Positions 10,140 through 28,581 of a DNA stretch of 28,581 nucleotides are shown here, in pieces. Below the pieces are notes generated by a model that saw only the letters and a list, made by a program, of their open reading frames with translations, had not been told where the DNA came from and searched no databases. The stretch's first letter is position 1; every line of letters starts with the position of its first letter. Source of the stretch: a virus; IMG/VR virus record IMGVR_UViG_3300045996_000357, positions 1 to 28,581 of that record; one strand, written 5' to 3'. The position numbers and the translations under genes are program-made.

Positions 10140-10193
10140 CTACACACATCCCACGTCCGGGCTGATCCCCTGGGCGCGAGTTATCGAGAAGAG

Positions 10194-10235: not shown

Positions 10236-10278
10236 GGGACACAACAACAGGATCAACCACAACCAAGGAGGGGAAGCC

Positions 10279-10626
10279 ATGGAAGTGCAAGTGTTTGCGA
10301 GTGATGAGGAGTATACGCCGTTGAACATTGAAGCCCTGACGCATGACGAAGCCTACGCCGTCTGTGAGCAGGTCGTCAGGATGGGGAAACGAGAACTGGT
10401 AAAGCGCATGGAGGTTGATGCCATTTGGCTCTCGCTACGGGCGAAGAATGTGCTGAAGCGGGCAGGGATCAAGGTTATTGGCGATCTCCTGCTGCCGATT
10501 GAGCAGATTCGCAAATTACGCGGTGCTGGGGAATTGGTGATGAACGAGATTGCCAAGGGATTGGAAGAATTGGGGTTGCCGTCAGCCAACTGGCGGCTCG
10601 CTTCAGTCGGGAAATACCAGAATTAA
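10279..10626 (+). CDS. RNA polymerase alpha C-terminal-domain-like protein
   Basis: ATG 10279 follows AAGGAGGGG; an in-frame ATG at 10207 lies in the terminator. The 115-residue protein matches the alpha-CTD of bacterial RNA polymerase over about residues 46-100 (SLRAKNVLKRAGI, IGDLL, then a helix-hairpin-helix ending EIAKGLEELGL). By alignment from memory, R54 and N57 match E. coli R265 and N268, which contact UP-element DNA, and G84 matches G296; K298 and S299 are replaced by L86 and V87. There is no N-terminal alpha domain, so it would not assemble into polymerase. It could bind DNA or compete with host alpha. It lies just after a terminator and before the packaging genes. Confidence 0.75.
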   Translation: MEVQVFASDEEYTPLNIEALTHDEAYAVCEQVVRMGKRELVKRMEVDAIWLSLRAKNVLKRAGIKVIGDLLLPIEQIRKLRGAGELVMNEIAKGLEELGLPSANWRLASVGKYQN

Positions 10627-14251: not shown

Positions 14252-15615
14252 GGTGTCGATGGGTTCTACTAGGTATTGTTCTGTGCCTCTGGCCGGCGCT
14301 GTCGTTTGGCCAGCAATTGCAGTCGCAGCCTGTCCATACGTTTCAGAGTGCAGCCACGGCAACTGGCAATGGCGAATCACTTGCGGTGCAAGGATGGGCC
14401 ACAGTCGGCCTCCAGGTGGTGATTTCCGATACCGCAACCATCACTTTCGAGGCAACTACCGATGGATCGAATTGGGTCAGCCGAACCTGCGTCTCGATTG
14501 CGAGCACGTCAGCGGCACTCGTCACGACTGCCTCAGCGAGTGGGTTATTTTCCTGCGATGTCGCAGGCATGTCCAGCTTCAGGGCCAGGATTTCTTCCTA
14601 TACGGGCGGGACGGTCACAGTAAAAGGGTTGGCGACCCTCGCAAAGAAAGGCGGGGGCGGCGGTGGATCAACCGGCACCGCCTCAGCAGTCACCAGCAGT
14701 GGCACGCTACCAGCGGCCTGCACCATTGGTGATGTGTACGTTGATAACGATCTAGTGGCGCTCTATCTGTGCACCGCAACAGATACATGGACGGCTGTTC
14801 TCACCAGCGAAACGCAAACACTCCAACTCGCCTTCGCTCAGGGCAAGGCCATTACCGGCGCAAACTCTGAAGCCAACTGCTTTCGAGCGGGTACGTCAAC
14901 CAATTATTACTGCATCTATTCCGATGCTGGCACTGGGCTTTATGTGAAGCCTGAACCGCTGGCTGACACCACGTTAAGAGCCTGGACGAATTTCAATTTG
15001 GTTTTTCGGGATGAGGAATCGGCCGCAGCCATAGAGACGATAGACCCTGACGCAGCTTCCACCTTGGCGATGTGGACCTACGGCACGGCCTATCGTCCCA
15101 AGAAAAGCATCTGGTTTGACGCGGGGTCCATCTCGACCAACTCAACAGCAACAGACGGCCAGCGCTGCGAAGCTCCTGCGGAAGTCACGCTCAACAGCGG
15201 GCCGATTACGTGGACGATTATCTGCGACGACCATGATTCGGCTTCCATGTACGGGAAAGTACGCATGCCTGATGCATGGGACGGCGGGACCCTCACATTC
15301 ACTCACGTATACCTCCAGACCGCTGCCGATACTTCAGCCTTAAACGGTGACATTGCGGCTCAGTGCCGAGGCAATGGCGAGGCTCCTTCAAGCACCTGGG
15401 GCACTGAAGTCGCCATCGATGACGCCGGTGTAACTGGCAGTAACCAGAATGATGAAACCACGTCGGCGGCGGTGACGCCAGCCGGGACCTGTGCGGCTGG
15501 TGACATGCTGTATTGGCGTTATCAGTTAGATGCGACAGGCACGACCACCGCAGTAGCCACGCTGCATCACCTCGGTTTCAAGATGGAGTACAGCATTACC
15601 TCACGGAGTGACTAG
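14248..15615 (+). CDS. Exported beta-rich protein, signal peptide plus phage-type sandwich domain
   Basis: The 455-residue product starts with a Sec signal peptide (basic MRCRW, hydrophobic core, likely cut near SFG/QQ, residue 21). Residues about 30-130 hold a beta-sandwich pattern common in phage structural proteins (ITFEATTDGSNW, FRARISSYTGGTVTVKG). A Gly6 run (135-140) then joins a second beta-rich region, and the last third (about 290-450) resembles head- or tail-fibre-type domains. It is the first of four consecutive signal-peptide genes between portal and scaffold. ATGA overlap with the portal stop. Role is unknown: exported virion part, or envelope protein made in the infected cell. 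Confidence 0.65.
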   Translation: MRCRWVLLGIVLCLWPALSFGQQLQSQPVHTFQSAATATGNGESLAVQGWATVGLQVVISDTATITFEATTDGSNWVSRTCVSIASTSAALVTTASASGLFSCDVAGMSSFRARISSYTGGTVTVKGLATLAKKGGGGGGSTGTASAVTSSGTLPAACTIGDVYVDNDLVALYLCTATDTWTAVLTSETQTLQLAFAQGKAITGANSEANCFRAGTSTNYYCIYSDAGTGLYVKPEPLADTTLRAWTNFNLVFRDEESAAAIETIDPDAASTLAMWTYGTAYRPKKSIWFDAGSISTNSTATDGQRCEAPAEVTLNSGPITWTIICDDHDSASMYGKVRMPDAWDGGTLTFTHVYLQTAADTSALNGDIAAQCRGNGEAPSSTWGTEVAIDDAGVTGSNQNDETTSAAVTPAGTCAAGDMLYWRYQLDATGTTTAVATLHHLGFKMEYSITSRSD

Positions 15616-15620
15616 CCATT

Positions 15621-16409
15621 ATGATGATGCACCTGATTCTTGTCATCGCGTTTCTTCTCTGCATGGCCGCGCCAGGTCGGGCCGCAGTGTCCTGTAGTTT
15701 ACTAACTTCAGGACAGGACACTACGGACAGAACTTCTGCGGGAAATCCCTACGTCACGGCATCCATTTCTCCAGGCGCGAATAAATTGATTTTGTTTGCG
15801 ATTCTTGTGAACAGGGGCACAGCAAGCGATACGGCCAGTGTGACACTGACTCCTACCGGAAACAGTCTCACCTACACATTGATTGACCAACAAAACTTTT
15901 CGCTGGCTGGCAACCCTGGCGACAAACTCGCACTTTTTCGGGCTATGGGATCGTCACCGACATCTGGGGCGATTTCTATAGAATGGTCACCAGGACACTT
16001 CATGTCTGGGGCAGCATGGGCGGTGGTGGAGTGTTCTGGCGTTAATACCTCTGGAACCCATGGATCTGGCGCTGTCGTCCAAAGCGATAAGGACGAACAA
16101 AACCCCGGAACAGGACTCACCTTATCCCTGGCCGCGTTTGAGAAAGCCTCTAATGCTACGTTTGCCACCTTTGCCAACGACAGTACCACGGCAGCGACGG
16201 TAGCAATGACCCCCGAAGGCGGGTGGACTGAGCTAGCTGAACAGAATTGTACGTGTGGAGCGAGCCAGAATTATTCCATCAATGCTCAGTGGATTGCCTC
16301 GAACGATACCACTCCATCCGCTACGTGGTCGAGCGTTGACGCGGCTGGAATCGCGATTGAGATTAAAGCAGTCCCAACAGCGAGGGCTGGGGCAATGGTG
16401 ATGCCGTGA
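15621..16409 (+). CDS. Exported beta-rich protein with signal peptide
   Basis: 262 residues. The start is MMMHLILVIAFLLCMAA with likely cleavage after about residue 21 (GRA/AV). The mature part is Ser/Thr/Ala-rich and beta-predicted, with alternating hydrophobic strands (NKLILFAILVN, GAAWAVVECSGV, GIAIEIKAV) like a jelly-roll or sandwich; two Cys near NCTCG suggest a disulphide. No named family is recognised. The stop overlaps the next GTG start (GTGA). Second of the four signal-peptide genes. Confidence 0.6.
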   Translation: MMMHLILVIAFLLCMAAPGRAAVSCSLLTSGQDTTDRTSAGNPYVTASISPGANKLILFAILVNRGTASDTASVTLTPTGNSLTYTLIDQQNFSLAGNPGDKLALFRAMGSSPTSGAISIEWSPGHFMSGAAWAVVECSGVNTSGTHGSGAVVQSDKDEQNPGTGLTLSLAAFEKASNATFATFANDSTTAATVAMTPEGGWTELAEQNCTCGASQNYSINAQWIASNDTTPSATWSSVDAAGIAIEIKAVPTARAGAMVMP

Positions 16410-19153
16410 CCATACTTATACTTGTCATGTTTCTTGTGCTGCCGCAGTTGGCTCACGCAGCGACGTATTATGTGGATCGGTCTATTGGCAGCGACAGTAA
16501 CAGCTCTGTGCAGGCGCAATCGGAGGACACGCCGTGGTTGACGATTCAGAAATGTGCCGATGCCATGACGACATCCGGCAATACGTGTCTCATTAAGAAT
16601 GGCACCTATCCCGAGCATGTGTGGATCAAATTTAGTGGGGCTTCTGGCTCTCCCAATGTCTACAAGGCGTATCCTGGGCACTTTCCCGTCATAGATTTCG
16701 TGCAGCCAAGTGACTCCTTGACGAGCCGTATCCGTCTCCAGCCCACAGCAGGCGGCGTGATTTCGTACATTACCGTTGAAGGCTTGCAAGTCAAGGATGC
16801 AAGTACGGCGTTTCAGTTTGCAAACGGCGAAGCCCTGATTTTCCGCAATAACTACGTCAATACCACCAATGCACAGGGCTTCCTCGGTGGCTGCTACAAC
16901 TGCGTGATCGAGGGGAACAAAATCTATTTTGCTGGCGGGCATAACGCCGACCAAAGCACGTCAAATAGTCAATATCACGGGATGTACCTGAGCGGGCAGA
17001 ATTGGGTGATTCGGCGCAATCTCGTCGTGGGGTCGCTAGGGTGGGGCCTTCAGATCAACGCGGCCACACAAAGCAACTGCGGGTGTACCACGGCAAATCA
17101 GGCTGGGTTTAGCGGCTATGTCGGCAATAACACCTTTGCGTATGGCATCAATCAGGGCGGGATTGTGGTGTGGAAGGCGACGACAGCGCTCCGCATTGAA
17201 AATAACCTCTTCTACGAGAACGCGCAAGCCAGGACTGGCACGGCGGTAGGCATCAACTGGGTTGCCCCTTACGGGACACAGACGACGGTCAAGAACAATT
17301 ATTCCTATTCCACTGGCAATTCCACGGGGTTTATTACGGATTCTGGCGCAGCAGAGAATACGAACTATACGCAAAGTGGGAACCGCTGTAATGCCGGTGG
17401 AGATGTAACATGCTCGGCCACAGCCACGAACCCGCTCTTTGTCAACGGTCCCTCCACGTACTCGGCCACTATTGACCTCACGCTGACCTCTACAAGTCCG
17501 GTCATTGGAGTCGGGCTGGTGAACGAATACGCTGACAATGGGGCGGCACCGGAGGCGGGAGCGCATGAAACGCTTGGCGGCTATTCCTCTGCGACGGCGA
17601 ATGAAAGCCATATTGATGTCACGATTGCGATGGACTTAAACGTGCCGCTCTTGCCAGCGTCAGGCATGACAGGGTGGACCGTGAAAGTCAATGCGGTTTC
17701 TCGCACGGTACTTTCAGCCGCAAAGCTCACAGGCACAGATAGCGTAGTGAGGATCACGTTTGACGGGGCTGTGTGTGCTGGAGGGGAAACCTGGACGGTT
17801 TCATACAGTGGGAGCGGGAATGTGACGGATAGTGCGCTGATAGGCGGGACTTCGAATCAACCGATGTTCGCGTTTACCGACCAAGCCGTGACGAATAACT
17901 GTGGCTCGGCTCCACCGCCCGACCCAGAAACGCCCTATTTCCATCTCACGTTGGACGATGGGTCAAGCGGGACGACGCCAACAACCGCCGAAGATGAAAG
18001 CGCAAACAATGAGGATGGCACGCTCACGAATGGTCCGACATGGGTCACTGGCAAACTGGGCTCGGCAGTGCAATTTGCCGATCAGGGCGATGACTATATC
18101 GCCGTGGCGCATGGCAGCGGGGTGAACCCATCTACACAGTCAATCACCGTCTGCATGGGCGTGAAAATGGACGCGGGATTGGAGGCGGCGACACGGACAT
18201 TCTTCGGTGCCTCGCTGGGCACGAATCAGCGGTTTTACCTGTCGAATATCACGGGAACATGGTCGATGGCGATTCAGTCCAGCCAAGCGACAAGTAATAG
18301 CGATTTCCCCGTCACGGCAGGCTGGCACTATCTCTGTCTGGTGATGAATAGTGGAACTGATGTCGCCACGCTGTACGTCGATGGGGTCGCTGGTACGGGA
18401 GCGCAGTCTGTCAAATCATATACGAGTTACACCTTTGCGAGCGACGTGACATTCGGGCGTGCTAATAGCTTTGGCGATTCGGTGTCTGGTGGCGTCACGA
18501 TTGACGAGCCGCGCTGGTACAACGCGGCACTGTCGCAAGCCAACATTGACGATTTAATTGAAATTTGGGAGCAAACATCACCGACGCCAACCGGCACGTA
18601 TGAGCAGAAAACGCATAAGTGGCAACGCTTACGAAAAACAGGGGCCGGTGCAGCGGAAGATTTTACGATTAGCGGGACAGCCAATGGCATCACCATTTCG
18701 GTCGTCCCTGGTGGGGCTGTGGAATTGGTGACGCAGATTGATTGCACAGCCGCAGATTGCGATCCAAGCGGTCTGAAGCTCTATTACAACGTGAATAGCG
18801 GAACATTCATTCCGCTCCCAGACGAATTTGCAACCGACAATGTAGCGTTTTATGGCACGACCAGCGACCCTGACGTGGTGAGCGGAACGGTGACGTGCTG
18901 CCTCACGGGGGCCTTAACTGCCAATGACGGTTCGACACAATTAACCGCATCAGCCGTGCCAGTATTTGACATTGCTCAGAACGCCTCGTTTGTTCGCCGC
19001 AGTGTGATTAAGTTCGATACCGATGTGACGGTTGGGAATACCTACTGTTTTAAGGAATATCACCAGACGGACGTAGCCCTCAACGGGGGGTACACCCCAA
19101 GTGCAGGAGCCTGTCTCACGATTGGTGGCCATAACGCAGGAGTCGGTTTCTAA
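16406..19153 (+). CDS. Large exported protein: beta-helix, SwmB-like and LamG-like domains
   Basis: 915 residues from a GTG start overlapping the previous stop. A signal peptide (about 1-18, cut AHA/AT) is followed by a right-handed parallel beta-helix region (about 20-390: TYYVDRSIGSDSN, then many G-N-x-hydrophobic repeats such as IEGNKIYF, IRRNLVVG, IENNLFYEN) like pectate-lyase-fold proteins. Next is an SwmB-like domain (about 400-490), then a LamG-like carbohydrate-binding region (about 505-715, HLTLDD, SAVQF, HYLCLVMN, ATLYVDG) and a Cys-rich tail. Such proteins bind or cut polysaccharides. It may act on host surface sugars; catalytic residues were not identified. Confidence 0.72.
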   Translation: MTILILVMFLVLPQLAHAATYYVDRSIGSDSNSSVQAQSEDTPWLTIQKCADAMTTSGNTCLIKNGTYPEHVWIKFSGASGSPNVYKAYPGHFPVIDFVQPSDSLTSRIRLQPTAGGVISYITVEGLQVKDASTAFQFANGEALIFRNNYVNTTNAQGFLGGCYNCVIEGNKIYFAGGHNADQSTSNSQYHGMYLSGQNWVIRRNLVVGSLGWGLQINAATQSNCGCTTANQAGFSGYVGNNTFAYGINQGGIVVWKATTALRIENNLFYENAQARTGTAVGINWVAPYGTQTTVKNNYSYSTGNSTGFITDSGAAENTNYTQSGNRCNAGGDVTCSATATNPLFVNGPSTYSATIDLTLTSTSPVIGVGLVNEYADNGAAPEAGAHETLGGYSSATANESHIDVTIAMDLNVPLLPASGMTGWTVKVNAVSRTVLSAAKLTGTDSVVRITFDGAVCAGGETWTVSYSGSGNVTDSALIGGTSNQPMFAFTDQAVTNNCGSAPPPDPETPYFHLTLDDGSSGTTPTTAEDESANNEDGTLTNGPTWVTGKLGSAVQFADQGDDYIAVAHGSGVNPSTQSITVCMGVKMDAGLEAATRTFFGASLGTNQRFYLSNITGTWSMAIQSSQATSNSDFPVTAGWHYLCLVMNSGTDVATLYVDGVAGTGAQSVKSYTSYTFASDVTFGRANSFGDSVSGGVTIDEPRWYNAALSQANIDDLIEIWEQTSPTPTGTYEQKTHKWQRLRKTGAGAAEDFTISGTANGITISVVPGGAVELVTQIDCTAADCDPSGLKLYYNVNSGTFIPLPDEFATDNVAFYGTTSDPDVVSGTVTCCLTGALTANDGSTQLTASAVPVFDIAQNASFVRRSVIKFDTDVTVGNTYCFKEYHQTDVALNGGYTPSAGACLTIGGHNAGVGF

Positions 19154-19587
19154 TGCTCATTCTATTCTTTCTGCTATTGTTTGCGACCCCAGTCCATGCG
19201 GCTTCAATCATCTGGGACCCTACGGCTGATGGGTTCCTGCTGCTGGAATACAGTGCGGCTGAAGGCGGTCCGTTTACCGTCATTAAGGAGATTCCAGCCT
19301 ATCCACCGAAATATCCCATTACGGAGTTTGGCTATTACAAACTCACGGTGCCGAACGGTGGGCCATCCTCCAACGTGGTGCGGTACTTTGCCGATGTGGA
19401 TACAGGCTGGCAGGACGTAGTAGCGGCACTCGATACGAGGGTGAAGATATTAGAAAGCCCTGTCTCAGTTACGAACATGACGGCCAAGCAGATTGACGCT
19501 GATCATATTGAGATTATCGGCAATGCCTGTACGTCACTCAGCACCAGTGGCACAGGCTTAAAACGTATCATTACGTGTAAGCACTAA
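19153..19587 (+). CDS. Small exported protein with FnIII-like segment
   Basis: 144 residues. Signal peptide MLILFFLLLFATPVHA with cleavage near residue 16. Residues about 20-76 resemble a fibronectin-type-III-like strand pattern (IIWDPTADGFLLLEYS, GYYKLTV, SSNVVRYF). A short helical segment (about 82-97) and a C-terminal region with two Cys (ACTSLS, IITCKH) follow. TAATG coupling on both sides. Fourth of the signal-peptide genes. Function unknown. Confidence 0.58.
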   Translation: MLILFFLLLFATPVHAASIIWDPTADGFLLLEYSAAEGGPFTVIKEIPAYPPKYPITEFGYYKLTVPNGGPSSNVVRYFADVDTGWQDVVAALDTRVKILESPVSVTNMTAKQIDADHIEIIGNACTSLSTSGTGLKRIITCKH

Positions 19588-20387
19588 TGGCCTATCGTCC
19601 ACTCAAGGTGTTCATCGGTTGGGACTCCAGGGAAGTCGTGGCCTACCACGTCTTAGTGAACTCCATTATCCGTCATGCCTCTGGGCCGGTCAGCATTACG
19701 CCGTTGGTGCAATCGCAGCTGCGTCAAGCGGGTATCTACACCAGAGAGAGAGGGAAGCTCGAGAGCACGGAGTTTTCCTTAACCCGCTTTCTCGTTCCCT
19801 ATCTCTGTGACTACGGGGACTATGCGGTGTTCATGGATTGCGACCAGCTGGTGCGAGGCGATGTCTACGACCTGGTGAAGATTGCGAAGGCTGATGACCA
19901 CCGCTGCGTATGGTGTGTGCAACATGACTATACGCCGACCACTGAGACGAAGATGGATGGCTGTGTGCAAACCAAGTATGAGCGGAAAAACTGGTCCTCA
20001 GTCATGGTGTTCAGAAACAAGTTCTGCGACAAGCTGACGCCTGGTTATGTGAACACGGCGACTGGGTTGGAACTCCACCGGATGCACTGGGCCGGCGCTC
20101 CCGAGAACATCGGCAAGTTGCCGGCCGAATGGAATCATCTCGTAGGGGAGTTTCCGAAACGTGAGGACGCGAAGCTGTACCACTACACGATTGGCGGGCC
20201 GTGGTTCCGCGACCATCAATTCTGTGACCATCACGACCTCTGGTATGAGGAACTCGATTACGCCTTCCCAAGTTTGAATGTGCCTAGACCGAAGGAGATG
20301 GGAGGTAGCCAAGCGGTACGGCAGCAGACTGTTAATCTGCCCATCGCAGGTTCGACCCCTGCCCTCCCAGCCAAGGTGGTGGCCTGA
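19587..20387 (+). CDS. GT8-like glycosyltransferase; 3' end overlaps a tRNA gene
   Basis: 266 residues. The N-terminal VFIGWDSREVVAYHV resembles GT-A transferases. A DxD metal/nucleotide-sugar motif is at D84-C-D86 in AVFMDCDQLVRGDV, and W/H-rich acceptor-side segments (for example HRMHWAGAPENIGKLPAEWNHL) follow. It would transfer a sugar from a nucleotide-sugar donor, target unknown. The last 30 codons, from about 20299, are the translation of a complete tRNA-Asn gene and look nothing like the family, so the ancestral stop was probably near residue 237. RNase P cutting at the tRNA would remove the present stop codon from this mRNA. It starts at TAATG. Confidence 0.8.
   Translation: MAYRPLKVFIGWDSREVVAYHVLVNSIIRHASGPVSITPLVQSQLRQAGIYTRERGKLESTEFSLTRFLVPYLCDYGDYAVFMDCDQLVRGDVYDLVKIAKADDHRCVWCVQHDYTPTTETKMDGCVQTKYERKNWSSVMVFRNKFCDKLTPGYVNTATGLELHRMHWAGAPENIGKLPAEWNHLVGEFPKREDAKLYHYTIGGPWFRDHQFCDHHDLWYEELDYAFPSLNVPRPKEMGGSQAVRQQTVNLPIAGSTPALPAKVVA
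20299..20373 (+). tRNA. tRNA-Asn (anticodon GTT), embedded in a coding sequence
   Basis: A full cloverleaf is visible: acceptor TGGGAGG/CCTCCCA (20299-20305 with 20363-20369), D-arm GCC/GGC, anticodon stem GCAGA/TCTGC with loop CTGTTAA (anticodon GTT at 20331-20333), variable loop CCATC, T-arm GCAGG/CCTGC with loop TTCGACC, discriminator G and encoded CCA (20371-20373). All stems are perfectly paired. It lies on the same strand inside the 3' end of the glycosyltransferase gene, and the following gene starts 13 nt after it. It could serve codon supply in the late phase and also act as a processing site in the mRNA. The encoded CCA supports a functional tRNA. Confidence 0.96.
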
Positions 20388-20818
20388 TGCCTCAATATAT
20401 CTACTTATGTCAGAACGGACATAGTTTCTCCGTATTCAACAGCGTGTCCAACCATTCGCCCATGGAACTCTGTACGCATTGCGGGGAGTTGGCGAACCAA
20501 GTGATTACCGCGCCACTGATTGTCAAGGTGGCACAGGATGTCTGCTACGACTCGCCCATCACTGGGGAGCCGATTACTTCATGGGACAGGCACCGCGAAG
20601 ATTTGAAGCGCCATGACTGTGTGCCCTATGACCCTGAAATGAAAACCGATCAGGAACGGCGGTTCAAAGAGAAAGACGAAGCACTGGACAAGTCTATCGG
20701 TGAAACTGTCGAGAAGGCGATTGAACAGATGCCGACATGGAAACGCGCCAAGCTCCATAGTGAGCTAGTGGATCAAGGGGTGACGGCCGAGGTCGCTCGG
20801 ACCGTTCCAACAACCTAG
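20387..20818 (+). CDS. FmdB-like zinc-ribbon protein
   Basis: 143 residues. The N-terminus (MPQYIYLCQNGHSFS, then a CTHC pair and QVITAP) matches the short zinc-ribbon proteins of the FmdB/CxxC regulatory type, with Cys8, His12 and Cys31/Cys34 as likely ligands. The rest is helical and charged. Phages often keep such a gene just before scaffold and capsid genes. The start overlaps the glycosyltransferase stop (TGATG) and would be the first gene 3' of a processed tRNA. Confidence 0.65.
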   Translation: MPQYIYLCQNGHSFSVFNSVSNHSPMELCTHCGELANQVITAPLIVKVAQDVCYDSPITGEPITSWDRHREDLKRHDCVPYDPEMKTDQERRFKEKDEALDKSIGETVEKAIEQMPTWKRAKLHSELVDQGVTAEVARTVPTT

Positions 20819-20829
20819 CAGGAGAGACA

Positions 20830-21813
20830 ATGGAACCAGTAGCGGAAGAAGTCAGTGGCGGTCTGGATGTCAGTGCAATGGCTGAGACGTTAGGCAAGGA
20901 ACTGTTCCCATCGTCTGGGGCAGAACCCAAGGATGACGCACCGGCTGAAACGCCCGTGCCTTCCCCCACGGAGGCCGCTGTGCCATCCCCTCAGCCAACA
21001 GTGCGCCAAGCGCCAGCCTCCTGGCCGAAAGACATGCATGACTACTGGGGCAAGACGGACCCGAAAGTACAGGAGTATTGGGAGACCCGCGAAAAGCAAA
21101 TGATGGAAGGGTTGAACCAGTACAAGACGGATGCCGATTTCACCAAGCAGTTCAGGAACGCCGTTGCCCCCTACAGCCAAACGCTGAAGCAGTTAGGCGT
21201 AGATGAAATCACAGCGGCTCGGCACCTGTTCAACGCTGACCATCAACTACGCTACTCGCCAGCCGAGAAGAAACTTGAGTACTTCAGGTCATTAGCGAAG
21301 GAATATGGCATCAGCTTGGACGGCGTGAATCAACAGGCCGCACCGATAGACCCCAATGTGAAAGCAATGCAGGAGAAGATTGAGCGGCTTGAGCAAGGGT
21401 TGACAGCCCGCGAGCAAGCCGAGCAGCAGGCGGCCTTTAATCAAGCCGCCAAAGAAGTCGAGGCATTCGCAGCGGATAAGGACAAACATCCCTACTTTGA
21501 GGAGGTGCAGGATCACATCACGCTCCTTCTCCATGGGATGCGTGCAGCCGGGAAGCAGCCCTCTCTACAGGAGGCGTATGACCAGGCTGTATGGGCCAAC
21601 CCCGTGACGCGAGCCAAAGAGATCGCTAAGGCGCAAACAGCGCATGAGGCGAAGCTCAAAGAGAACGCACGGCTGGAATCGTTACCGAAGAAGAAAGCCG
21701 CTGCGTTGAACGTCAATGGTCGTGACACCAAACGGACTCCAACAGAGCCATTGGGAACGATGGAAGAGACGCTCAAGAAAACGTATCGAGAGATTCAAGA
21801 GCGTGCCCACTAA
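20830..21813 (+). CDS. Scaffolding protein
   Basis: 327 residues: an acidic, Pro/Ala-rich disordered start (about 1-60), then a helical body with APASWPKDMHDYWGK and VQEYWETREKQMMEGLN (about 63-95), typical of scaffold genes next to P22-like and T7-like capsid genes. A long coiled-coil centre (about 175-225) and a basic C-terminus follow. Scaffold proteins guide capsid assembly and then leave the head. It sits directly upstream of the major capsid gene. Confidence 0.75.
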   Translation: MEPVAEEVSGGLDVSAMAETLGKELFPSSGAEPKDDAPAETPVPSPTEAAVPSPQPTVRQAPASWPKDMHDYWGKTDPKVQEYWETREKQMMEGLNQYKTDADFTKQFRNAVAPYSQTLKQLGVDEITAARHLFNADHQLRYSPAEKKLEYFRSLAKEYGISLDGVNQQAAPIDPNVKAMQEKIERLEQGLTAREQAEQQAAFNQAAKEVEAFAADKDKHPYFEEVQDHITLLLHGMRAAGKQPSLQEAYDQAVWANPVTRAKEIAKAQTAHEAKLKENARLESLPKKKAAALNVNGRDTKRTPTEPLGTMEETLKKTYREIQERAH

Positions 21814-21832
21814 ACTCTAGAAGGAGACGAAC

Positions 21833-22798
21833 ATGGCATCAGCCAATTCGACATTTACGGAGCTGGTTACGACCACGCTCCGCAATCATCGTGCAGAAAT
21901 TAAAGACAACGTGTCCGAGCGGGTGGCCCTCCTGCGTTACATGAAGAAGAAGGGGAACTATCGGACGGAAGATGGTGGTCTGACCATCGTCGCTCCGCTG
22001 GATTATGCGGAGAACGGCACCTACCAGCGCTATAGCGACTGGGATGTGCTGGATATCAGCCAGTCCGATGTGCTGAGTGCAGCGGAATATCCCTGGAAGC
22101 AGATTGCCATTAACGTGGTCGCTTCCGGTCGTGATATTCGCATCAACAGCGGTGAGTCCAAAATCATGAACTTGGCGAAGTCGCGCATCAACAACGCCAA
22201 GCGCACGTTCATGAACAACTTCTCTGAGGATATGTATTCCGCAGGGTCGTTGACGAACCAAGTGAACGGTATCCAGGCGATTATCGCCGATACCAATACG
22301 AATACCGTTGGGGGTATCTCAGCCAACACTTGGAGTTTCTGGAGAAACACCGTATTCGATCTGTCTGCCAATTCCGTGACCATCTCCGCAACCACGATTG
22401 AGAATAGTGCGATGCTCCCGCTGTGGCTGTCGATTGACCGTGGCCCCGGCGACCATCCAGACCTCATCGTGATGGATAGCGTCTACTACAAGCATTTCGA
22501 GGGCTCACAGACATCGCTCAAGCGGTATGCCGATAGTCAGGCTGCCAATGGCGGGTTTGTGGCGTTGAAGTACAAGAATGCCGATGTGGTGTTCGATGGC
22601 ACAGCAAGCGGGATCCCCGCTTCGCACGCCTACTTCATCAACACCAACTATTTCGAGTTGGTGGCGCATAAGGATGCGGATATGGAAGTGCTCGAGGAAA
22701 TCCGGCCGGTCAACCAGGATGGATCCGTCACGACAATGGTGTGGATGGGTAACCTGGTCTGCTCGAACCGGAAATTACAGGGTGTGATTATCGAATAA
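21833..22798 (+). CDS. Major capsid protein
   Basis: 321 residues, start after AGAAGGAGA. It follows the scaffold and is the best candidate for the abundant HK97-fold coat protein. The N-terminal TTTLRNHRAEIKDNVSERVALLRYMKKKGNY is a typical coat start, followed by QRYSDWDVLDISQSDVLSAAEYPWKQ and ALKYKNADVVFDG-type strands in the second half. No Cys-rich or catalytic motif. The size fits the family. A 50-nt gap with no clear signal separates it from the next gene. Confidence 0.85.
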   Translation: MASANSTFTELVTTTLRNHRAEIKDNVSERVALLRYMKKKGNYRTEDGGLTIVAPLDYAENGTYQRYSDWDVLDISQSDVLSAAEYPWKQIAINVVASGRDIRINSGESKIMNLAKSRINNAKRTFMNNFSEDMYSAGSLTNQVNGIQAIIADTNTNTVGGISANTWSFWRNTVFDLSANSVTISATTIENSAMLPLWLSIDRGPGDHPDLIVMDSVYYKHFEGSQTSLKRYADSQAANGGFVALKYKNADVVFDGTASGIPASHAYFINTNYFELVAHKDADMEVLEEIRPVNQDGSVTTMVWMGNLVCSNRKLQGVIIE

Positions 22799-22848
22799 GC
22801 GCATCACATGGCTTACACGACAACCAACCCTTCTAAAGGAGAATAACC

Positions 22849-23346
22849 ATGGCAGTAGCTTCCAAAATCATTTCCCCGCTGGTGACGCAAAAGCTCACGT
22901 CAGCCAGCGACACCCAGAAGCATGAACTGGGCTTGATCGTGCATACCGACTGCGGCGGGGTGGCCGAGTATGGCTTGGCCCTCTCAGCCATTTCGCAGTA
23001 TGCGTTTTGTGCCATCTACGAGCAGGGTTCAGCAGAAATGCTGACCACCACGATTGGGGCCGATGCCGGCACCAGTAAGAAAGTGGGTTGCCCGCAGGCG
23101 TCCATAGCCTCCGCGTATTACGGATGGTTTATGCGCCAAGGGGTGTTCGTCGGGCGGTTTGCAGATGACTGTGCGGATCAGGTGCCGCTGTTTACCACAG
23201 CCACCGCTGGCGAGTTGGACGATGCAACAGTCTCCAACTGCTTAGTGGCTGGTGTGTACCTGAACGTCACCGCGTCGTTGGCAACAGCATTGACCTGCTA
23301 TGCCAGCACACCGATGTACGTGCATCCGTACACGAACCCAGCGTAA
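22849..23346 (+). CDS. Putative capsid decoration or head-stabilising protein
   Basis: 165 residues, start after AAAGGAGAA. The product is beta-rich and Ala/Thr/Val-rich (GLIVHTDCGGVAEYGLA, YYGWFMRQGVFVGRF, DDATVSNCLVAGVYLNVTA), resembling proteins encoded right after capsid genes. Position immediately after the coat gene supports a decoration role, but it was not matched to a named family. Confidence 0.6.
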   Translation: MAVASKIISPLVTQKLTSASDTQKHELGLIVHTDCGGVAEYGLALSAISQYAFCAIYEQGSAEMLTTTIGADAGTSKKVGCPQASIASAYYGWFMRQGVFVGRFADDCADQVPLFTTATAGELDDATVSNCLVAGVYLNVTASLATALTCYASTPMYVHPYTNPA

Positions 23347-23354
23347 GGAGTGAC

Positions 23355-24179
23355 ATGACGGGAACCGACATCCAGGCAACGAAGATTGTGAAGATTGATG
23401 TGTCGCAGTTTGGCGCGGCTGGGCAACATATCGCCGCCATTCAGCGCAACAGTCAACGCGGTCTGCCTGAGTTGGCCCCGTCAGTCATTGCCCACGATGG
23501 AACCATGGTGTTGGTGGGGAGTGGTCATTCGCTCCCCACCTTCATCGAAGAAATCAGGGAACAGCAGGCGAAGGGCCGGACGATTTGTGCCATTAAAGGC
23601 TCACATGATTTGCTCTGTGAGCACGGCATTATTCCAGATCTATTCGTCTCAATCGAGCCACGGGATAGGCGAGGGAACCTCAAGCATAAAAATGAGCATA
23701 CGGTTTACCTGCTCGCCTCCCGTGTCTCTCCTGAAGTCTTTGACCATCTCGATGGCTGCAAGGTGATGATTTGGCACTCAGCGGGGCATCAGTCAGAGAA
23801 TGAAGTCACGCTGAAAACGGCTGGGAAAAATCTCATTCTTGGCGGCGGGTCTACTAGCGGCCTTCGCGCCATTGCGCTCGGGTACTGCTATTTCGGCTTT
23901 CGGAATTTCATTCTCTACGGCTACGACTCCTGCAATGCAGCCGATGGCACCAAACGATTTGACGGCTCCATGACGGGCATCACCCATCCCCCTATCTTCG
24001 TTGGCGAGGGTGAACACCGGAAGGGACCATTTATCTGCAACATGGCCATGGCCGCACAAGCTGAGGAGTTTCAACTCTGTACCTACGGCCTCTTTCCAGA
24101 CATTCACATTGAAGCCAGAGGCAACGGCTTGATTGCCGCGATTATTGAGGAAAGGAAACGCCTTGGGAAGCGAACATAA
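23355..24179 (+). CDS. MptE-like/DUF115 Rossmann-type protein
   Basis: 274 residues. Features match MptE-like (DUF115) proteins: MVLVGSGHSLPTFIEE (about residues 50-66), a following LLCEHGIIPDLFVSIEP segment and GGGSTSGLRAIALGYCYFG with LYGYDSCN further on. In bacteria and phages this family often lies beside glycosyltransferases, and relatives take part in flagellin glycosylation or pterin chemistry. Here it begins the sugar-modification cassette. Start with AAGGAG upstream. The actual substrate is unknown. Confidence 0.65.
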   Translation: MTGTDIQATKIVKIDVSQFGAAGQHIAAIQRNSQRGLPELAPSVIAHDGTMVLVGSGHSLPTFIEEIREQQAKGRTICAIKGSHDLLCEHGIIPDLFVSIEPRDRRGNLKHKNEHTVYLLASRVSPEVFDHLDGCKVMIWHSAGHQSENEVTLKTAGKNLILGGGSTSGLRAIALGYCYFGFRNFILYGYDSCNAADGTKRFDGSMTGITHPPIFVGEGEHRKGPFICNMAMAAQAEEFQLCTYGLFPDIHIEARGNGLIAAIIEERKRLGKRT

Positions 24180-25020
24180 AGCCGTCTTTATTCATCGTTC
24201 CGGTCCTGAGTTAGCCAGTTACCGCTATCGGGCCGAGATTCCAGCCAAAGCCATTGGAGCCTGTGTCAACGGTGGGGAACCAGGCCATGTCTACATCTTC
24301 AATAAGCCGATTCATGCCGATGTGGAGTTAGCCAAGGAATGTAAGGCTGAAGGCGTCAAGGTGGTGGTGGATATTGGGGACGACCACTTTAACCACGCTG
24401 TCTGGGGTCCGGTCTATCGGGAGATGGTGGGACTCGCTGATTTCCTAGTCGCTCCTACGGAAAATATGTCCAATAGGCTGGTCAAGTATTTCGGGAAGCC
24501 TGCCGATGCCATCATTCCCGACCCCTACGAGGAAGCTCTGCAATCCCCCCATGCAGCTGGGCAGAAATTGCTCTGGTACGGCCATCCAGTGAACCTCAAG
24601 GATTTGAAAGAGTGGTTGCCGTCAATCAAGGACTTTGATGTGACCATTGTCACAGGCAAAAACCACGGCCTCCCACATGACTACCTGCAATGGTCGCCTG
24701 AAGTCCAGACCCGTGAACTCCAAAGGGCCAACATTGTGATTCTCCCTACCCGTAAAGGGGTGGAGTTCAAGAGTGCTAATCGGCTAGTCAATGCCTTACG
24801 TGCCGGCTGTTTCCCAGTCTGTGGGGGGCATATTCCATCCTATCAGGAGTTCCGTAAGGTCGCCTGGGTAGGCAACTTTAGTACAGGGCTCCGGTGGGCA
24901 ACCGCCTACCCGCAGGACTTGAATGCGTTAGTAGCCGAAGGGCAGCAGTATATAGAGAAGTTCTCCCCTGAGAATATCGGGAAACTCTGGCAGCAAGTAG
25001 TGGATTCGCTATGCGTTTGA
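24163..25020 (+). CDS. GT-B type glycosyltransferase
   Basis: 285 residues from TTG 24163 with an AGGA 6 nt upstream; an in-frame TTG at 24133 is the alternative. It overlaps the previous gene by 17 nt. The C-terminal half has the GT-B nucleotide-sugar pattern (RANIVILPTRKGVEFKSANRL, then NALRAGCFPVCGG), and a VVVDIGDDHF segment lies in the N-terminal half. It likely transfers a sugar from a nucleotide donor in a glycan or virion modification pathway. Acceptor and sugar are unknown. Confidence 0.75.
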   Translation: MGSEHKAVFIHRSGPELASYRYRAEIPAKAIGACVNGGEPGHVYIFNKPIHADVELAKECKAEGVKVVVDIGDDHFNHAVWGPVYREMVGLADFLVAPTENMSNRLVKYFGKPADAIIPDPYEEALQSPHAAGQKLLWYGHPVNLKDLKEWLPSIKDFDVTIVTGKNHGLPHDYLQWSPEVQTRELQRANIVILPTRKGVEFKSANRLVNALRAGCFPVCGGHIPSYQEFRKVAWVGNFSTGLRWATAYPQDLNALVAEGQQYIEKFSPENIGKLWQQVVDSLCV

Positions 25021-25484
25021 ATGTTGGTTGCGGCGACAAGCTGATACCTGGCTTCACCAATGTAGACCGCAACGGCTCTGCCGATGTGAAGTCTGACGCA
25101 TGGCCGCTCCCGTTCGATACGGACTCCGTTGCTGAACTCTGGGCCATCCATCTCTTTGAACACATCCACCGCAGTAAGGCGAGTGAATGCCTCACTGAAT
25201 GGTTCAGAGTGCTCAAGCCTGGTGGGAAGTTGGTCCTAGAACTGCCCTGTTTGGACAAGATTGCTCATCTGTTAGTGGCTGGTGAAACGAATATCAGGCT
25301 GACGCTGTTGGGCCTCTTTGGGGATCCAAGAGACCCAAAGCCTGACATGATGCACCAATGGTGCTGGGGACAGAAGGAACTGACGGAAGCGCTCACCAGC
25401 GTAGGCTATGAACAGATTACGTTTATGGAGCCGGTGTTCCACATTGCGAAGCGGGATATGAGGGTGGAGGCACGTAAGCCGTAA
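25011..25484 (+). CDS. SAM-dependent methyltransferase (class I)
   Basis: 157 residues, overlapping the glycosyltransferase stop by 10 nt. Motif I is RLNVGCGDKLIPGFTNVDR (about residues 2-20), with the acidic residue at its end. Motifs LPFDTDSVAELWAIHLFEHI (about 33-52) and WFRVLKPGGKLVLELP (about 64-79) follow. This is the compact Methyltransf_11-like fold. By context it probably methylates a sugar or small carbohydrate intermediate rather than DNA; no DNA methylase motifs are present. Confidence 0.85.
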   Translation: MRLNVGCGDKLIPGFTNVDRNGSADVKSDAWPLPFDTDSVAELWAIHLFEHIHRSKASECLTEWFRVLKPGGKLVLELPCLDKIAHLLVAGETNIRLTLLGLFGDPRDPKPDMMHQWCWGQKELTEALTSVGYEQITFMEPVFHIAKRDMRVEARKP

Positions 25485-26596
25485 TGGGCACCACTGACGT
25501 AAAAGACGGTTACGCCTGTCGCCTTTGCTTTGGGGCCTGTCGTGTCATGCTGGAATTAACGCCGACCCCGATAGCGAACAGCTTTCCTGACTATCCCGAT
25601 AGCTACGCCAAACGCTACCCCTTAGCCGTACAGGAATGTTTGGAGTGCGGCCATGTGCAACTCAAGCATCAGGTGTCAGTGGATTGGGTGGATTACCGCT
25701 ATCAGACACCGGAAGCGAGCCGACCCCATTTAGCCGATGCGGCCGATGCCATCAGAACCGCCTTCCCGTTTTTCAAAACGGCCATAGAGATTGGCAGTAA
25801 TAACGGCATCTACCTGGAGGAGCTACGCCGAGTGGGATTTGAAGTCATCGGCATTGACCCGAACGCCAAGGTAGGGATTGCCGCACCATTTACCCATGAC
25901 CTCGCCAAGAAGCTCGAGCCGGTTGACTTGATTGTAGCCAACAACGTCTTGGCCCATGTAGACGATATGTACGATGTGTTCAACGGCATTGACCGCGTAT
26001 TGACGGACGATGGAGCCCTGATATTTGAAGTCCAGTACTTCCCAGACATGATGGCGTCCGGTGCGTTTGACATGATTTACCATGAACACCGTGACTACCA
26101 CACCATGAAGCCGCTGCCACGCTTCCTGAAACGCTTTGGTCTGGTCATTGAACAAGTGGATTTCATCGAGACGCATGGCGGGTCTCTGCGGGTGTGGTGT
26201 CGCCGTCCCGGTCTCGGCCTGGATGTCGATGACATGGACATGGACTGGCGAGCCTTCAAGCACAAGATTGATGAGGCACGGCGGGTACTCATCGCACAGT
26301 TAGACCAAGCGAAGTCCCACATTGTAGCACTTGGAGCGACAGCCAAAGCCTGTACGCTCATTCATCACTTTGGCCTCACCGACTATATTGACTATGCCGT
26401 GGATAGTACGCCGCAGAAACAAGGCCGCTACATTCCCGGCACAGATATAGAGATTCACCGACCCGATGTCCTCAAGAACGATCCTGATGCTGTTGTCCTG
26501 CTGACTGCGTGGAACTTTGCGGATGTCATTGTGCCGCAATTTCCCGATAAGCAGTTCATCATTCCCTTTGCCAAACCCGTGGAGGTTCTCGCATGA
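25484..26596 (+). CDS. Sugar C-methyltransferase-like protein (TylC3/NovU type)
   Basis: 370 residues. An N-terminal zinc site (C12, C15, C52, C55; CRLC and CLEC) precedes a class I SAM domain with IEIGSNNGIYLEEL (about 101-114) and IGIDPNAKVG, a YHEHRDYHT active-site segment typical of this family, and a C-terminal helical/Rossmann region with GATAKACTLIHHFGL. Three-part architecture and motifs match C-methyltransferases that act on deoxysugar nucleotides. Starts on the last base of the previous stop (TAATG). Confirms a sugar role for the cassette. Confidence 0.85.
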   Translation: MGTTDVKDGYACRLCFGACRVMLELTPTPIANSFPDYPDSYAKRYPLAVQECLECGHVQLKHQVSVDWVDYRYQTPEASRPHLADAADAIRTAFPFFKTAIEIGSNNGIYLEELRRVGFEVIGIDPNAKVGIAAPFTHDLAKKLEPVDLIVANNVLAHVDDMYDVFNGIDRVLTDDGALIFEVQYFPDMMASGAFDMIYHEHRDYHTMKPLPRFLKRFGLVIEQVDFIETHGGSLRVWCRRPGLGLDVDDMDMDWRAFKHKIDEARRVLIAQLDQAKSHIVALGATAKACTLIHHFGLTDYIDYAVDSTPQKQGRYIPGTDIEIHRPDVLKNDPDAVVLLTAWNFADVIVPQFPDKQFIIPFAKPVEVLA

Positions 26597-27222
26597 GTGC
26601 TGTGGTCTCTGAACTACGTGAGCGGTCTGAACGTCCTGCCTATGTGCGCTTTGAAACGCGCCCGCTGGAAGATAAGAAAGCCTCGGAAGAGGCGGGTCAT
26701 TATGTCGCCAAGGATGTGGAGTTTGCCATCATCACCCCCTGCTATAGCAAGGACGAACTGCATTTCAGGGTGGATAAGTGGATGGTCCAGATGGATGACC
26801 AAGTACGGAATGGCCGGATGCCAGCGGAATGGGCGAAGCAGTACAAGCAAGCGTATCAGGCGTGGAAGGAAGGGCTGGAACTGCCGCTGAACGGCACCCC
26901 CATTAAAGGCTGGCCGATTCTCTCGCCCGCCATGCAGGAGAATTTGATCCGGCTCAACATCAAGACCGTGGAAGATTTGGCCGGCATTAACGATGACGCG
27001 GCCAAGATGATTGGCATGGGCGCTATCAATCTCAAGAATAAGGCGAATGCGTGGTTGTCCCAGGCGAAGGATAAAGGGCCTGCCACGATGGAGATTGCAC
27101 GGCTCAAGCAGCAGACGGAAAACCAGAGCTCACAGATTGAAAAGCTGACCGCACAACTGGAGGAGTTCAGGCAAGCGCTGAAGTCCAAGCGGAAGAAGGC
27201 CGAACCGTCCGATGAGGAGTAA
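26593..27222 (+). CDS. Helix-hairpin-helix plus coiled-coil phage protein
   Basis: 209 residues, ATGA overlap with the previous stop. The first half is beta/helical, with YVRFETRPL and AKDVEFAIITPCYSKDELHFRV. Residues about 102-149 (GWPILSPAMQENLIRLNIKTVEDLAGI and a second hairpin AAKMIGMGA) are a helix-hairpin-helix pair, followed by a coiled coil (about 160-195). Similar proteins occur in other phages next to head or adaptor genes, with no agreed function. DNA or virion binding is an inference. Confidence 0.55.
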   Translation: MSAVVSELRERSERPAYVRFETRPLEDKKASEEAGHYVAKDVEFAIITPCYSKDELHFRVDKWMVQMDDQVRNGRMPAEWAKQYKQAYQAWKEGLELPLNGTPIKGWPILSPAMQENLIRLNIKTVEDLAGINDDAAKMIGMGAINLKNKANAWLSQAKDKGPATMEIARLKQQTENQSSQIEKLTAQLEEFRQALKSKRKKAEPSDEE

Positions 27223-27225
27223 GCC

Positions 27226-27939
27226 ATGAGTCTGTTGACCATTATTCAGTACCACGCTGGCCGGACCAATATCCCGGTGCCTTCTGCGGTCATGGCGAAC
27301 ATTGCCGACACGCAGATACTCCAAATGGTGCGGCTCCTCGAGGAGGAAGGCACGGATTTATCGAAGCGTGGCGACTGGGAAGGCATTACCTTTGAAACAA
27401 CGCACACGACAACGGCGGCTGAGGATCAAGGGGCAATGACAACGCTTTCAACCAACGGCTTCCGCTCTATCAAGAACAAGACGTTTTGGGACAGAAGCAG
27501 CAACCTTCCAGTAAAAGGCCCACTATCGCCAACACAGTGGCAGCGCGTCAAGGGCATGAGTTCCTCGCTTTCTCGTTACCATTACCGGATTCGCGCTGGA
27601 AAACTCTTAATTACTCCAACTCCGCCAGCAGACCTCACCTTCGCCTGGGAATACCGCTCTAAAAACTGGATTCTCGGGGCAGATGGGAGCACCTACAAGC
27701 AGTATTTCACGCTCGACACGGACACCATCTTACTGCCGGAAGATTTGGTTATCCTGGGTCTCCGGTGGCGATGGAAAAAAGAGAAGGGCCTTGAGTATAG
27801 CGAGGATTTCAATAGCTATGAGGCCCAAGTGAAGCAAGCGTTAGGCGAGGATGGAGGGAAGCCTGATTTACACATGGATAGCGATACTGAACGGGCCTCG
27901 TTCGGTATTGTCGTTCCCGAAATGAGCTGGGATCTCTAG
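27226..27939 (+). CDS. Head-tail adaptor protein
   Basis: 237 residues. Typical phage adaptor features: N-terminal helical region with MVRLLEEEGTDLSKRGDWEG, then FWDRSSNLPVKGPLSPTQWQ and RYHYRIRAGKLLITPTPPADLTFAWEYRS, and a C-terminal EDLVILGLRWRWKKEKGLEYSEDFNSYEAQ. This sequence layout is that of the portal-ring adaptor in podovirus-like phages. It would bind under the portal and join the tail. Start after GAGGAGTAAGCC. Confidence 0.8.
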   Translation: MSLLTIIQYHAGRTNIPVPSAVMANIADTQILQMVRLLEEEGTDLSKRGDWEGITFETTHTTTAAEDQGAMTTLSTNGFRSIKNKTFWDRSSNLPVKGPLSPTQWQRVKGMSSSLSRYHYRIRAGKLLITPTPPADLTFAWEYRSKNWILGADGSTYKQYFTLDTDTILLPEDLVILGLRWRWKKEKGLEYSEDFNSYEAQVKQALGEDGGKPDLHMDSDTERASFGIVVPEMSWDL

Positions 27940-27950
27940 GGAGGTATTTT

Positions 27951-28148
27951 ATGTGGGGATTCATTAAGCGAGTATTCACCAACCCGACTCCTTCAGTTGG
28001 CATCCAGGCCAATCCACTGGTGATTGGGTCAGCCAAGCATCAACGCAATCTCGAGCGGATTTCACGCATTAAACAGGCGATTGCAGCCGGTGATAAGCGC
28101 AGGGAACTGAAGCAGGAATTAGCGAGACGTGAAAAGGAGGCCACCTAA
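27951..28148 (+). CDS. Small basic protein, 65 aa
   Basis: Start after GGAGG. Basic and helical, with SAKHQRNLERISRIKQAIAAGDKRRELKQELARREK as a long charged helix. No domain recognised; probably a small structural or assembly partner of the adaptor. Couples to the next gene at TAATG. Confidence 0.5.
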   Translation: MWGFIKRVFTNPTPSVGIQANPLVIGSAKHQRNLERISRIKQAIAAGDKRRELKQELARREKEAT

Positions 28149-28581
28149 TGCCAGCCGTCACACTCAACCTCTATGACATTTTTCGGCGTAAGCAATCCAG
28201 CGGCAACGGGGCGGTCAATCTGTCCTCCGTCACCGTCAAGTGCATGATTGTGACCGGCACCTATACGCCGAACCAGAACACGCACGATTTCAGAGATGAC
28301 CTGGGAGCCAACGAAGTCTCGGGATCTAACTACACTGCTGGGGGCAATGCGATGATAAATCCAGTGGTGAGCTTGAGTGGCGCTGGACTCGTCACGGTTG
28401 ACTTTGATGACCCAGCGACCTGGGCGCAACATGCCACAGGATTTAGTAACGGACGGAGAGCGGTGGTCTATGTCGCACGCGGAGGTCTTTCAAGTGCTGA
28501 TGAATTGATAGGCTACACCGATGATTTCGGTGCAGACAAAGGCAACGTGGATGGAGACTTCAGCGTAGCGGTCAACGCGAG
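28148..28581 (+). CDS. Phage structural protein, partial at right edge
   Basis: The frame is open to the end of the window (144 complete codons), so the C-terminus is missing. The start overlaps the previous stop, with AAAAGGAGG upstream. The pattern SSVTVKCMIVTGTYTPNQNTHDFRDD, EVSGSNYTAGG and VTVDFDDPATW matches a widespread beta-rich phage structural protein near adaptor and tail genes. Role is probably a virion component; exact position in the particle is unknown. Confidence 0.75.
   Translation, partial: MPAVTLNLYDIFRRKQSSGNGAVNLSSVTVKCMIVTGTYTPNQNTHDFRDDLGANEVSGSNYTAGGNAMINPVVSLSGAGLVTVDFDDPATWAQHATGFSNGRRAVVYVARGGLSSADELIGYTDDFGADKGNVDGDFSVAVNA

Follow-up and report, generated by a model that had tools for sequence, protein, structure and literature searches.

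Why would a phage keep sugar-modifying enzymes among its head genes? The question is raised by the virus record IMGVR_UViG_3300045996_000357 (28,581 bases, linear and probably a fragment; the whole stretch is called the window below), in which four coupled genes lie on the + strand at 23355-26596, behind the capsid gene, just as a sequence-only reading had described them. That reading proposed that their products decorate the virion or host surface glycans with methylated sugars. When related phages are compared, these enzyme genes (the cassette) and the gene for a 165-amino-acid (aa) protein encoded just upstream of them prove to be exchanged as one block between the capsid gene and that of a conserved late protein, p209. 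The substrate and the chemistry we infer: the cassette is probably, though by no means certainly, a cytosolic O-glycosylation and methylation module dedicated to the 165-aa protein. The proposal of methylated-sugar decoration thus stands in part, in that sugar-modification enzymes are well supported by sequence and model comparisons and the virion is the favoured target, and the host-surface option is disfavoured. The argument depends on the following features.

21833..22798, + strand: major capsid protein, the 5' border of the exchange slot (PHROG 9953 major head protein, E 1.4e-78; Mx8/Mx9 homologues).
22849..23346, + strand: 165-aa putative decoration or outer capsid protein, the proposed cassette substrate (PHROG 29386).
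23355..24179, + strand: Maf-like glycosyltransferase with the PF01973 MptE-like/Maf_flag10 domain only (Pfam, PDB profile, fold).
24163..25020, + strand: GT-B glycosyltransferase with a TTG start behind GAGG (AlphaFold2 fold).
25011..25484, + strand: small class I S-adenosylmethionine (SAM) methyltransferase, Methyltransf_11 (Pfam; PHROG 6636 methyltransferase).
25484..26596, + strand: TylC3/NovU/TcaB9-type sugar C-methyltransferase (three Pfam domains; PDB matches).
26593..27222, + strand: p209, conserved late protein, the 3' border of the slot and outside the block (PHROG 20268).
27226..27939, + strand: adaptor/tail protein (PHROG 6013 tail protein, E 3.7e-43).
19587..20387, + strand: GT8-like putative glycosyltransferase of GT-A type (PHROG 28018, of unknown function, E 1.5e-45).

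Relatives were found by capsid-protein searches of viral contigs and genome contigs, and the sets (1 and 2) were pooled and duplicates removed. This survey, which the sequence-only reading had asked for, found the cassette to be variably present, with the Maf-like gene in 52 of 214 distinct loci (numbered with the prefix L) when the slot is taken from the capsid gene to p209. Nearly all of these slots hold a member of one small capsid-type protein family, and the Maf-like gene, where present, comes directly after the small capsid gene or a few small open reading frames (ORFs) further on. In L050 and L056 the capsid proteins are 99.4% identical and the DNA remains 97% identical until 9 nt inside the small capsid gene; the slot is then without similarity, and 92% DNA identity returns from the start of p209. 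In one of these slots a small capsid protein is accompanied by the Maf-like gene; the other has just a small capsid protein, and it is a different one. Similar borders are seen in L234/L233, where DNA identity is 95% until the capsid gene ends and again 93% near the p209 start, and in L049/L055, whose flanks are 81-85% identical and whose borders lie about as in L050/L056. The crossover in L277/L282 falls ~150 nt into the small capsid gene, the N-terminal part of which is common to both; the remainder of that gene therefore travels with the Maf-like gene. Finally, L024 and L082 have capsid proteins that are 92% identical and small capsid proteins that are 23% identical; in L024 the slot has a four-enzyme block of the window's type, its small capsid protein and that of the window being 72% identical, and in L082 a Maf-methyltransferase fusion block with a long Maf-like protein.

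We pooled all pairs whose capsid proteins are at least 95% identical. Each of the 11 pairs that differ in the Maf-like gene has a decoration protein identity of at most 50%, and these pairs represent about five independent events (L277 versus L281/L282/L285; L050/L056; L225/L234 versus L221/L233; L104/L272; L049 versus L051/L055). When both members carry the Maf-like gene the decoration protein stays at 80% identity or more (13/13), and when neither does it is at least 80% identical in 56 of 76 pairs and below 60% in 11. L246 was counted as a carrier here, because its slot can be aligned at 78% with the L277 slot and has only short frames in the Maf-like place; counted as a non-carrier it is the sole exception, with a small capsid protein that is 78% identical. 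Downstream of 4646-5140 in the L246 slot the Maf-like gene is apparently broken, either as a decaying copy or by a sequencing error. A tree-based independent-pairs test on set 1 gave about 4 of 8 pairs with 0 against (p 0.125, not significant).

The block also appears to keep together over much larger distances. Between L026 and the window, terminase, portal, capsid, p209 and adaptor proteins are 29-34% identical (p209 30%), and the corresponding figures are 43% for the small capsid protein and 45-55% for the four cassette proteins; p209 occurs in relatives with and without the cassette. Among the 30 carriers of set 1, decoration and Maf-like protein distances have a partial r of 0.64 (p <=0.0005) once capsid distance is removed, the comparable values being 0.22 for p209 and 0.14 for the adaptor.

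Does this joint travel identify the 165-aa protein as the substrate? A Maf-like gene that lies behind a capsid-protein gene and changes together with it is best explained as encoding an enzyme that modifies that protein, and several findings weigh against this explanation. Recombination in conserved flanks moves any content, so block exchange alone is no proof of a decoration substrate. In all 22 carriers of set 2 the decoration/Maf-like r is 0.01, and in the 15 loci with decoration proteins of at least 150 aa, a subset picked afterwards, it is 0.27 (p 0.012), so that the correlation holds strongly in the clade of the window and is uncertain elsewhere. The enzymes are missing from many relatives whose decoration protein has a similar length, some Maf-like genes accompany a 95-aa decoration form, and the N- and C-terminal domains of Maf are absent from the phage Maf-like protein. 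We infer the surface role of the 165-aa protein from its position, from a weak match to PHROG 29386 (virion structural protein, E 1e-3) and from the database entry AAK94384, its Mx8 counterpart at the equal position, which is labelled 'major virion structural protein'.

Such considerations leave some room for a cassette that modifies another virion protein (capsid, tail, or the secreted-type beta-helix proteins encoded at 14248-19587), with the decoration gene as a passenger. The conserved-flank borders would carry that gene along anyway, the failure of the decoration/Maf correlation in set 2 as a whole agrees with a passenger role, and mycobacteriophage glycans sit on capsid and tail-tube subunits, as cited in PMC12619734. 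We nevertheless regard it as unlikely: the capsid gene stays the same when the cassette changes (pairs with 99% identical capsid proteins differ in it), the adaptor does not follow it, and p209, equally near on the other side, follows it weakly or not at all. Nor was any pair found that gains or loses the Maf-like gene with a decoration identity of at least 0.7, if L246 with its broken frame is set aside.

The 165-aa protein, which on the above grounds would be a capsid surface decoration protein, is 69-81% conserved among close cassette carriers. A rule that the Maf-like gene occurs only with decoration proteins of 159-173 aa held in 31/31 cases of set 1, where two proteins called 193 aa probably have their starts placed too far upstream; it was dropped after set 2, whose carriers include decoration forms of 91-95 aa and one of 265 aa. 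Long forms (at least 225 aa) rarely occur with the Maf-like gene (1/22 versus 57/111; Fisher p 3e-5, kinship uncorrected). Ser/Thr content is 0.209 with the Maf-like gene and 0.167 in length-matched proteins without it, a difference that is uncorrected for kinship and was given no weight. In L061, L074, L104, L044 and L054 the Maf-like gene is absent and an ORF family of 216-232 aa lies between the capsid and small capsid genes.

What kind of enzyme leads the cassette? The "MptE-like" name of the sequence-only reading is correct as to the domain, since PF01973 is present at 71 bits (cutoff 34.6, E 1.4e-19); as a functional name it misleads. With a profile built from 10 homologues, the top PDB sequence match is the Maf of Magnetospirillum (5mu5, E 2.7e-9), and the archaeal pterin kinase 8sd5 ranks behind it (E 4.5e-5). 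An AlphaFold2 model (pLDDT 82.5) gives the same order, with Maf 5mu5 at Z 20.2 (220 residues, rmsd 3.2) ahead of MptE at Z 15.1 and sialyltransferases at Z ~9; in the model the 274-aa protein aligns just to residues 247-504 of 5mu5. The DxD[GS]D motif is found in 0/30 Maf-like proteins from slots, the window protein having SIEPRD where M. jannaschii 8sd5 has SDLDGD. A pterin kinase (MptE) identity was therefore rejected, since the DxDGD motif is missing and the Maf match is better by fold and by sequence. On its predicted structure and sequence we file the PF01973 protein as Maf-like, neither as Maf nor as pterin-kinase-like.

The same results make action of the enzymes on DNA or nucleotides, as base hypermodification or in pterin metabolism, the least credible of the alternatives we weighed. 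Pfam does name the domain 6-hydroxymethylpterin diphosphokinase MptE-like, and glycosyltransferases of other phages modify DNA (Pyle et al. 2024, cited in PMC12619734). However, the slot proteins lack the archaeal kinase motif (30/30) and are nearer to Maf in fold and sequence, no base-hypermodification gene was recognised among the annotated window proteins, and sugar C-methyltransferases of the TylC3/NovU type act on NDP-sugars (NDP, nucleoside diphosphate).

The identities given earlier to the other three enzymes, a GT-B glycosyltransferase, a SAM methyltransferase and a TylC3/NovU-type C-methyltransferase, are upheld by Pfam, PDB and fold matches. The GT-B gene was listed from 24133; its likeliest start is the TTG at 24163 behind a GAGG box, and its homologues also begin at the matching position. 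The protein has no Pfam match above cutoff, reaches PHROG 7162 glycosyltransferase at E 6e-4 and gave a chance match only when its sequence was searched against the PDB, so that fold comparison decided its identity: the AlphaFold2 model (pLDDT 88) has the two Rossmann-like domains of a GT-B fold and matches Gtf3/SenB (E 8e-10), MshA (Z 24.4 over 274 residues) and, as a group, MshA/PimA/BshA (Z ~24). The fold is thus common to Gtf3/GtfC and SenB-type GT-B enzymes, with a sequence identity of just ~15%; Gtf3 works in the glycosylation of serine-rich surface proteins. The small methyltransferase matches Methyltransf_11 at 30.3 bits (cutoff 21.2), and its gene is present in every tabulated GT-B cassette.

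The C-methyltransferase has PF08421, PF13489 and PF08484 in order, all above the Pfam cutoff, which corresponds to a Zn-binding N-terminal domain, a SAM domain and a C-terminal Methyltransf_14 domain. Its PDB matches are MtmC (4rv9, E 7e-51) and TcaB9-type C-3'-methyltransferases (E 1e-41 to 7e-48, TcaB9 at about 1e-43). Cys 12, 15, 52 and 55 are invariant, and the YxEH and His motifs (Y199/E201/H202 and H158, likewise invariant) align with the TcaB9 active site, the residues of which we take to be Tyr222/Glu224/His225 and His181. In three-domain architecture, Zn cysteines and aligned active-site motifs the protein is thus like the TylC3/NovU/EvaC/TcaB9/MtmC 3-C-methyltransferases, and by this likeness is predicted to belong to a family that acts on NDP-sugars. 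Known TylC3/NovU-type enzymes serve antibiotic sugars and have complete NDP-sugar pathways alongside; the phage cassette, by contrast, is without NDP-sugar synthesis genes.

Could these be unrelated accessory genes, gathered at a recombination-tolerant spot without a joint function? The slot content does differ strongly among relatives. Maf-like proteins are fused to Methyltransf_24 in L028, L065, L091 and L012, to Methyltransf_23/25 in L035 and to an N-terminal GT2 domain in L040; the L043 slot has a GT8-like gene and an additional methyltransferase inside and is without the C-methyltransferase; L060, L225 and L234 have the Maf-like, GT-B and small methyltransferase genes, again without the C-methyltransferase. 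In L040 a gene for an FdtA-type dTDP-4-keto-6-deoxyhexose isomerase (7688-8110) lies between the small capsid gene and the GT2-Maf-like fusion gene. To judge from the predicted proteins, the theme of the slot (glycan transfer and methylation) is constant and the exact gene set varies. A chance assembly is very improbable, as the variation is mostly within this one functional theme, the fusions of Maf-like proteins to methyltransferases and a GT2 domain are native, and the FdtA of L040 is an enzyme for the equal class of NDP-4-keto-6-deoxy sugar. Moreover, complete four-gene cassettes of equal order recur in the equal place in independent contigs and persist in distant phages at 43-73% identity, which argues that the cassette is not a chance product. 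Thus sugar modification is well supported, at the level of predicted proteins, by the Maf-like fold, the GT-B fold, the C-methyltransferase residues, the native MptE-methyltransferase fusions and the FdtA in a relative's slot.

The remaining question of target is whether the sugars go to the virion or to the host surface. C-methylated sugars are also found in bacterial surface polysaccharides, and phage glycosyltransferases change host serotype in lysogeny (cited in PMC12619734), so that the cassette might act late in infection on glycans of the host surface and, for instance, hinder re-adsorption of progeny to debris or infected cells. We consider this improbable. No transmembrane segments are predicted in the cassette proteins, an absence that suits a protein substrate in the cytosol and argues against a role in O-antigen modification; flippase, bactoprenol-linked transferase and membrane acyltransferase genes were not seen in the slot; the cassette lies inside the head operon and would be expressed with the head genes; and joint travel with the decoration gene would go unexplained. 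Virion decoration is accordingly favoured over host glycans because the travelling block includes the decoration gene, the proteins lack membrane segments and membrane-bound O-antigen machinery is not seen in the slot.

If the 165-aa protein is indeed the substrate, the following sequence of events may be envisaged. The decoration protein would sit on the capsid surface, and the Maf-like enzyme, acting in the cytoplasm, would attach a first sugar to Ser/Thr residues of this protein once it has folded, just as Maf glycosylates flagellin. The glycan might then be lengthened by the GT-B and GT8-like enzymes, and the small methyltransferase would methylate and so cap it. The TylC3/TcaB9-type enzyme would make a branched-chain C-methyl sugar from an NDP-4-keto-6-deoxyhexose of the host, the NDP-sugar presumably being a host product as the phage brings no synthesis genes for it in the cassette. 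Late co-expression with the head genes would have the glycoprotein ready at assembly, and a swap of the block would change the sugar coat of the virion.

Maf enzymes glycosylate flagellin on Ser/Thr and consist of three domains, including an N-terminal Rossmann-like domain and a C-terminal helical bundle; in one study the cognate flagellin was accepted and a non-cognate one was not (PMC11339370). This cognate-only action fits a cognate pair that is swapped together. Like the flagellin glycosyltransferases of Campylobacter, Aeromonas, Magnetospirillum and Clostridium, the phage protein has the central PF01973 domain, is apparently cytosolic, and has a gene that adjoins that of the protein it is proposed to modify, the acceptor being a repeated surface protein in both cases. 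It differs in having the central domain only, often fused to a methyltransferase, in an acceptor that would be a capsid protein (no flagellin gene was recognised in the window) and in a donor that is unlikely to be a nonulosonic acid synthesised by the products of nearby genes.

Methyltransferases are also involved in the glycosylation of mycobacteriophage virions. There the modifying enzymes are phage-encoded (Freeman et al. 2023, cited in PMC11256854 and PMC12619734), the C-termini of capsid and tail-tube proteins are modified, and the genes may lie at the far genome end, as in Maravista. In the window, as may be expected of a virion glycosylation system, phage-encoded glycosyltransferase genes lie among or near structural genes. 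In contrast to mycobacteriophages, the window has its genes in the head operon with a Maf-like enzyme, they are swapped with the decoration gene, and the phage family is a different one with relatives in Proteobacteria. Virion glycosylation itself is known; what our results suggest to be new is the use of a Maf-like enzyme for it, in a block that is exchangeable and includes the presumed substrate. A full-text literature search for phage and MptE returned no paper on a phage Maf-like/MptE cassette.

Its capsid protein family places the window with the Mx8/Mx9-like capsid modules (Myxococcus phages, ppBjS10J-1, BUCT555). Gene order in Mx8/Mx9 also matches (portal, scaffold-type gene, capsid, decoration-type protein, p50, tail protein), and in the isolated members examined the slot is without a Maf-like gene or cassette. 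Neither a megablast search with 9000-28581 nor tblastn searches with the MptE-like and GT-B proteins matched any of 50,697 phage records, which thus yielded no cultured phage that carries the cassette. Capsid-gene relatives lie in genomes and metagenome-assembled genomes (MAGs) labelled Alpha-, Beta- and Gammaproteobacteria (Herminiimonas, Candidimonas, Thalassospira, Mesorhizobium, Chromobacterium and others); among genome-contig relatives, Maf-like carriers occur in MAG contigs only, one of them with a Euryarchaeota label the binning of which we do not trust. The L114 contig, binned as Euryarchaeota, has a cassette that includes a radical SAM/SPASM protein (4377-5327), in the order Maf-like, radical SAM, C-methyltransferase, GT-B, small methyltransferase.

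A wider picture, toward which we are nearly evenly disposed with a slight leaning against, is of a large phage family with exchangeable coat-pattern blocks at a fixed spot of the head operon, each made up of a decoration protein, its cognate Maf-type O-glycosyltransferase and tailoring enzymes, so that a swap would amount to serotype-like switching of the virion surface. Such swaps may be likened to the bacterial exchange of O-antigen or flagellin-glycosylation islands. If true, this would name the substrate and mode of sugar coating for a common environmental phage family, make virion glycans exchangeable as modules, extend flagellin-type O-glycosylation to virus capsids, and give a concrete function to MptE-like proteins labelled pterin kinases in uncultured phages, a name that such proteins carry in the structure library. 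In mycobacteriophages the glycan coat influences immune recognition, and phage coats of this sort may also bear on surface binding or environmental persistence.

The GT8-like transferase at 19587, which the sequence-only reading had grouped with the cassette, is indeed linked to it. The Pfam GT8 score of the protein lies below the gathering cutoff (11.1 versus 24.3 bits, E 0.28); its L043 homologue reaches E 3.6e-4 (20.6 bits), and its own profile matches WbbM 6u4b (E 2e-5) over a span that includes the DxD motif, found in VFMDCDQLV with D84 and D86 invariant in six homologues. When only loci holding the whole portal-to-p209 stretch are counted, the gene is present in 4/6 GT-B-cassette loci, 0/20 Maf-like-only loci and 0/85 loci with neither; it is thus linked to the GT-B cassette and occurs just there (4/6 versus 0/105). 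The 3' end of the GT8-like ORF contains a tRNA-Asn gene (anticodon gtt; 20299-20373, +), and the last ~30 residues of the ORF are tRNA read-through; a close homologue in L005 stops before this point. In L002 an 893-aa protein with MptE-like, Methyltransf_23 and FkbM domains is encoded at 83-2764, upstream of the GT8-like gene and additional to the cassette in that locus's slot.

From 10626 onward the window reads as a single late operon that starts with the large terminase and portal (PHROG 12082, E 6e-151). After the portal come four ORFs with hydrophobic N-termini, the GT8-like ORF, a zinc-ribbon ORF and a scaffold-like ORF, the GT8-like gene thus lying between secreted-type ORFs and the zinc-ribbon gene; from the capsid on, the order is major capsid protein, 165-aa ORF, the four cassette genes, p209 and the tail/adaptor protein. 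An insertion between capsid and adaptor genes, as first described, is right for the slot as a whole; the direct neighbours of the cassette are the 165-aa gene (5') and p209 (3'), with the adaptor next after p209. The genes are tightly packed, with 8 bases between the 165-aa and Maf-like genes, overlaps of 17 bases (Maf-like/GT-B) and 10 bases (GT-B/small methyltransferase), and junctions of TAATG into the C-methyltransferase gene and ATGA into p209; no promoter- or terminator-like sites in the region exceeded shuffles. The four consecutive ORFs between the portal and GT8-like genes (14248-19587) start with signal-peptide-like hydrophobic stretches, and one of them, of 915 aa, resembles by eye a right-handed beta-helix with a weak pentraxin-like part; secreted proteins within a head operon are unusual.

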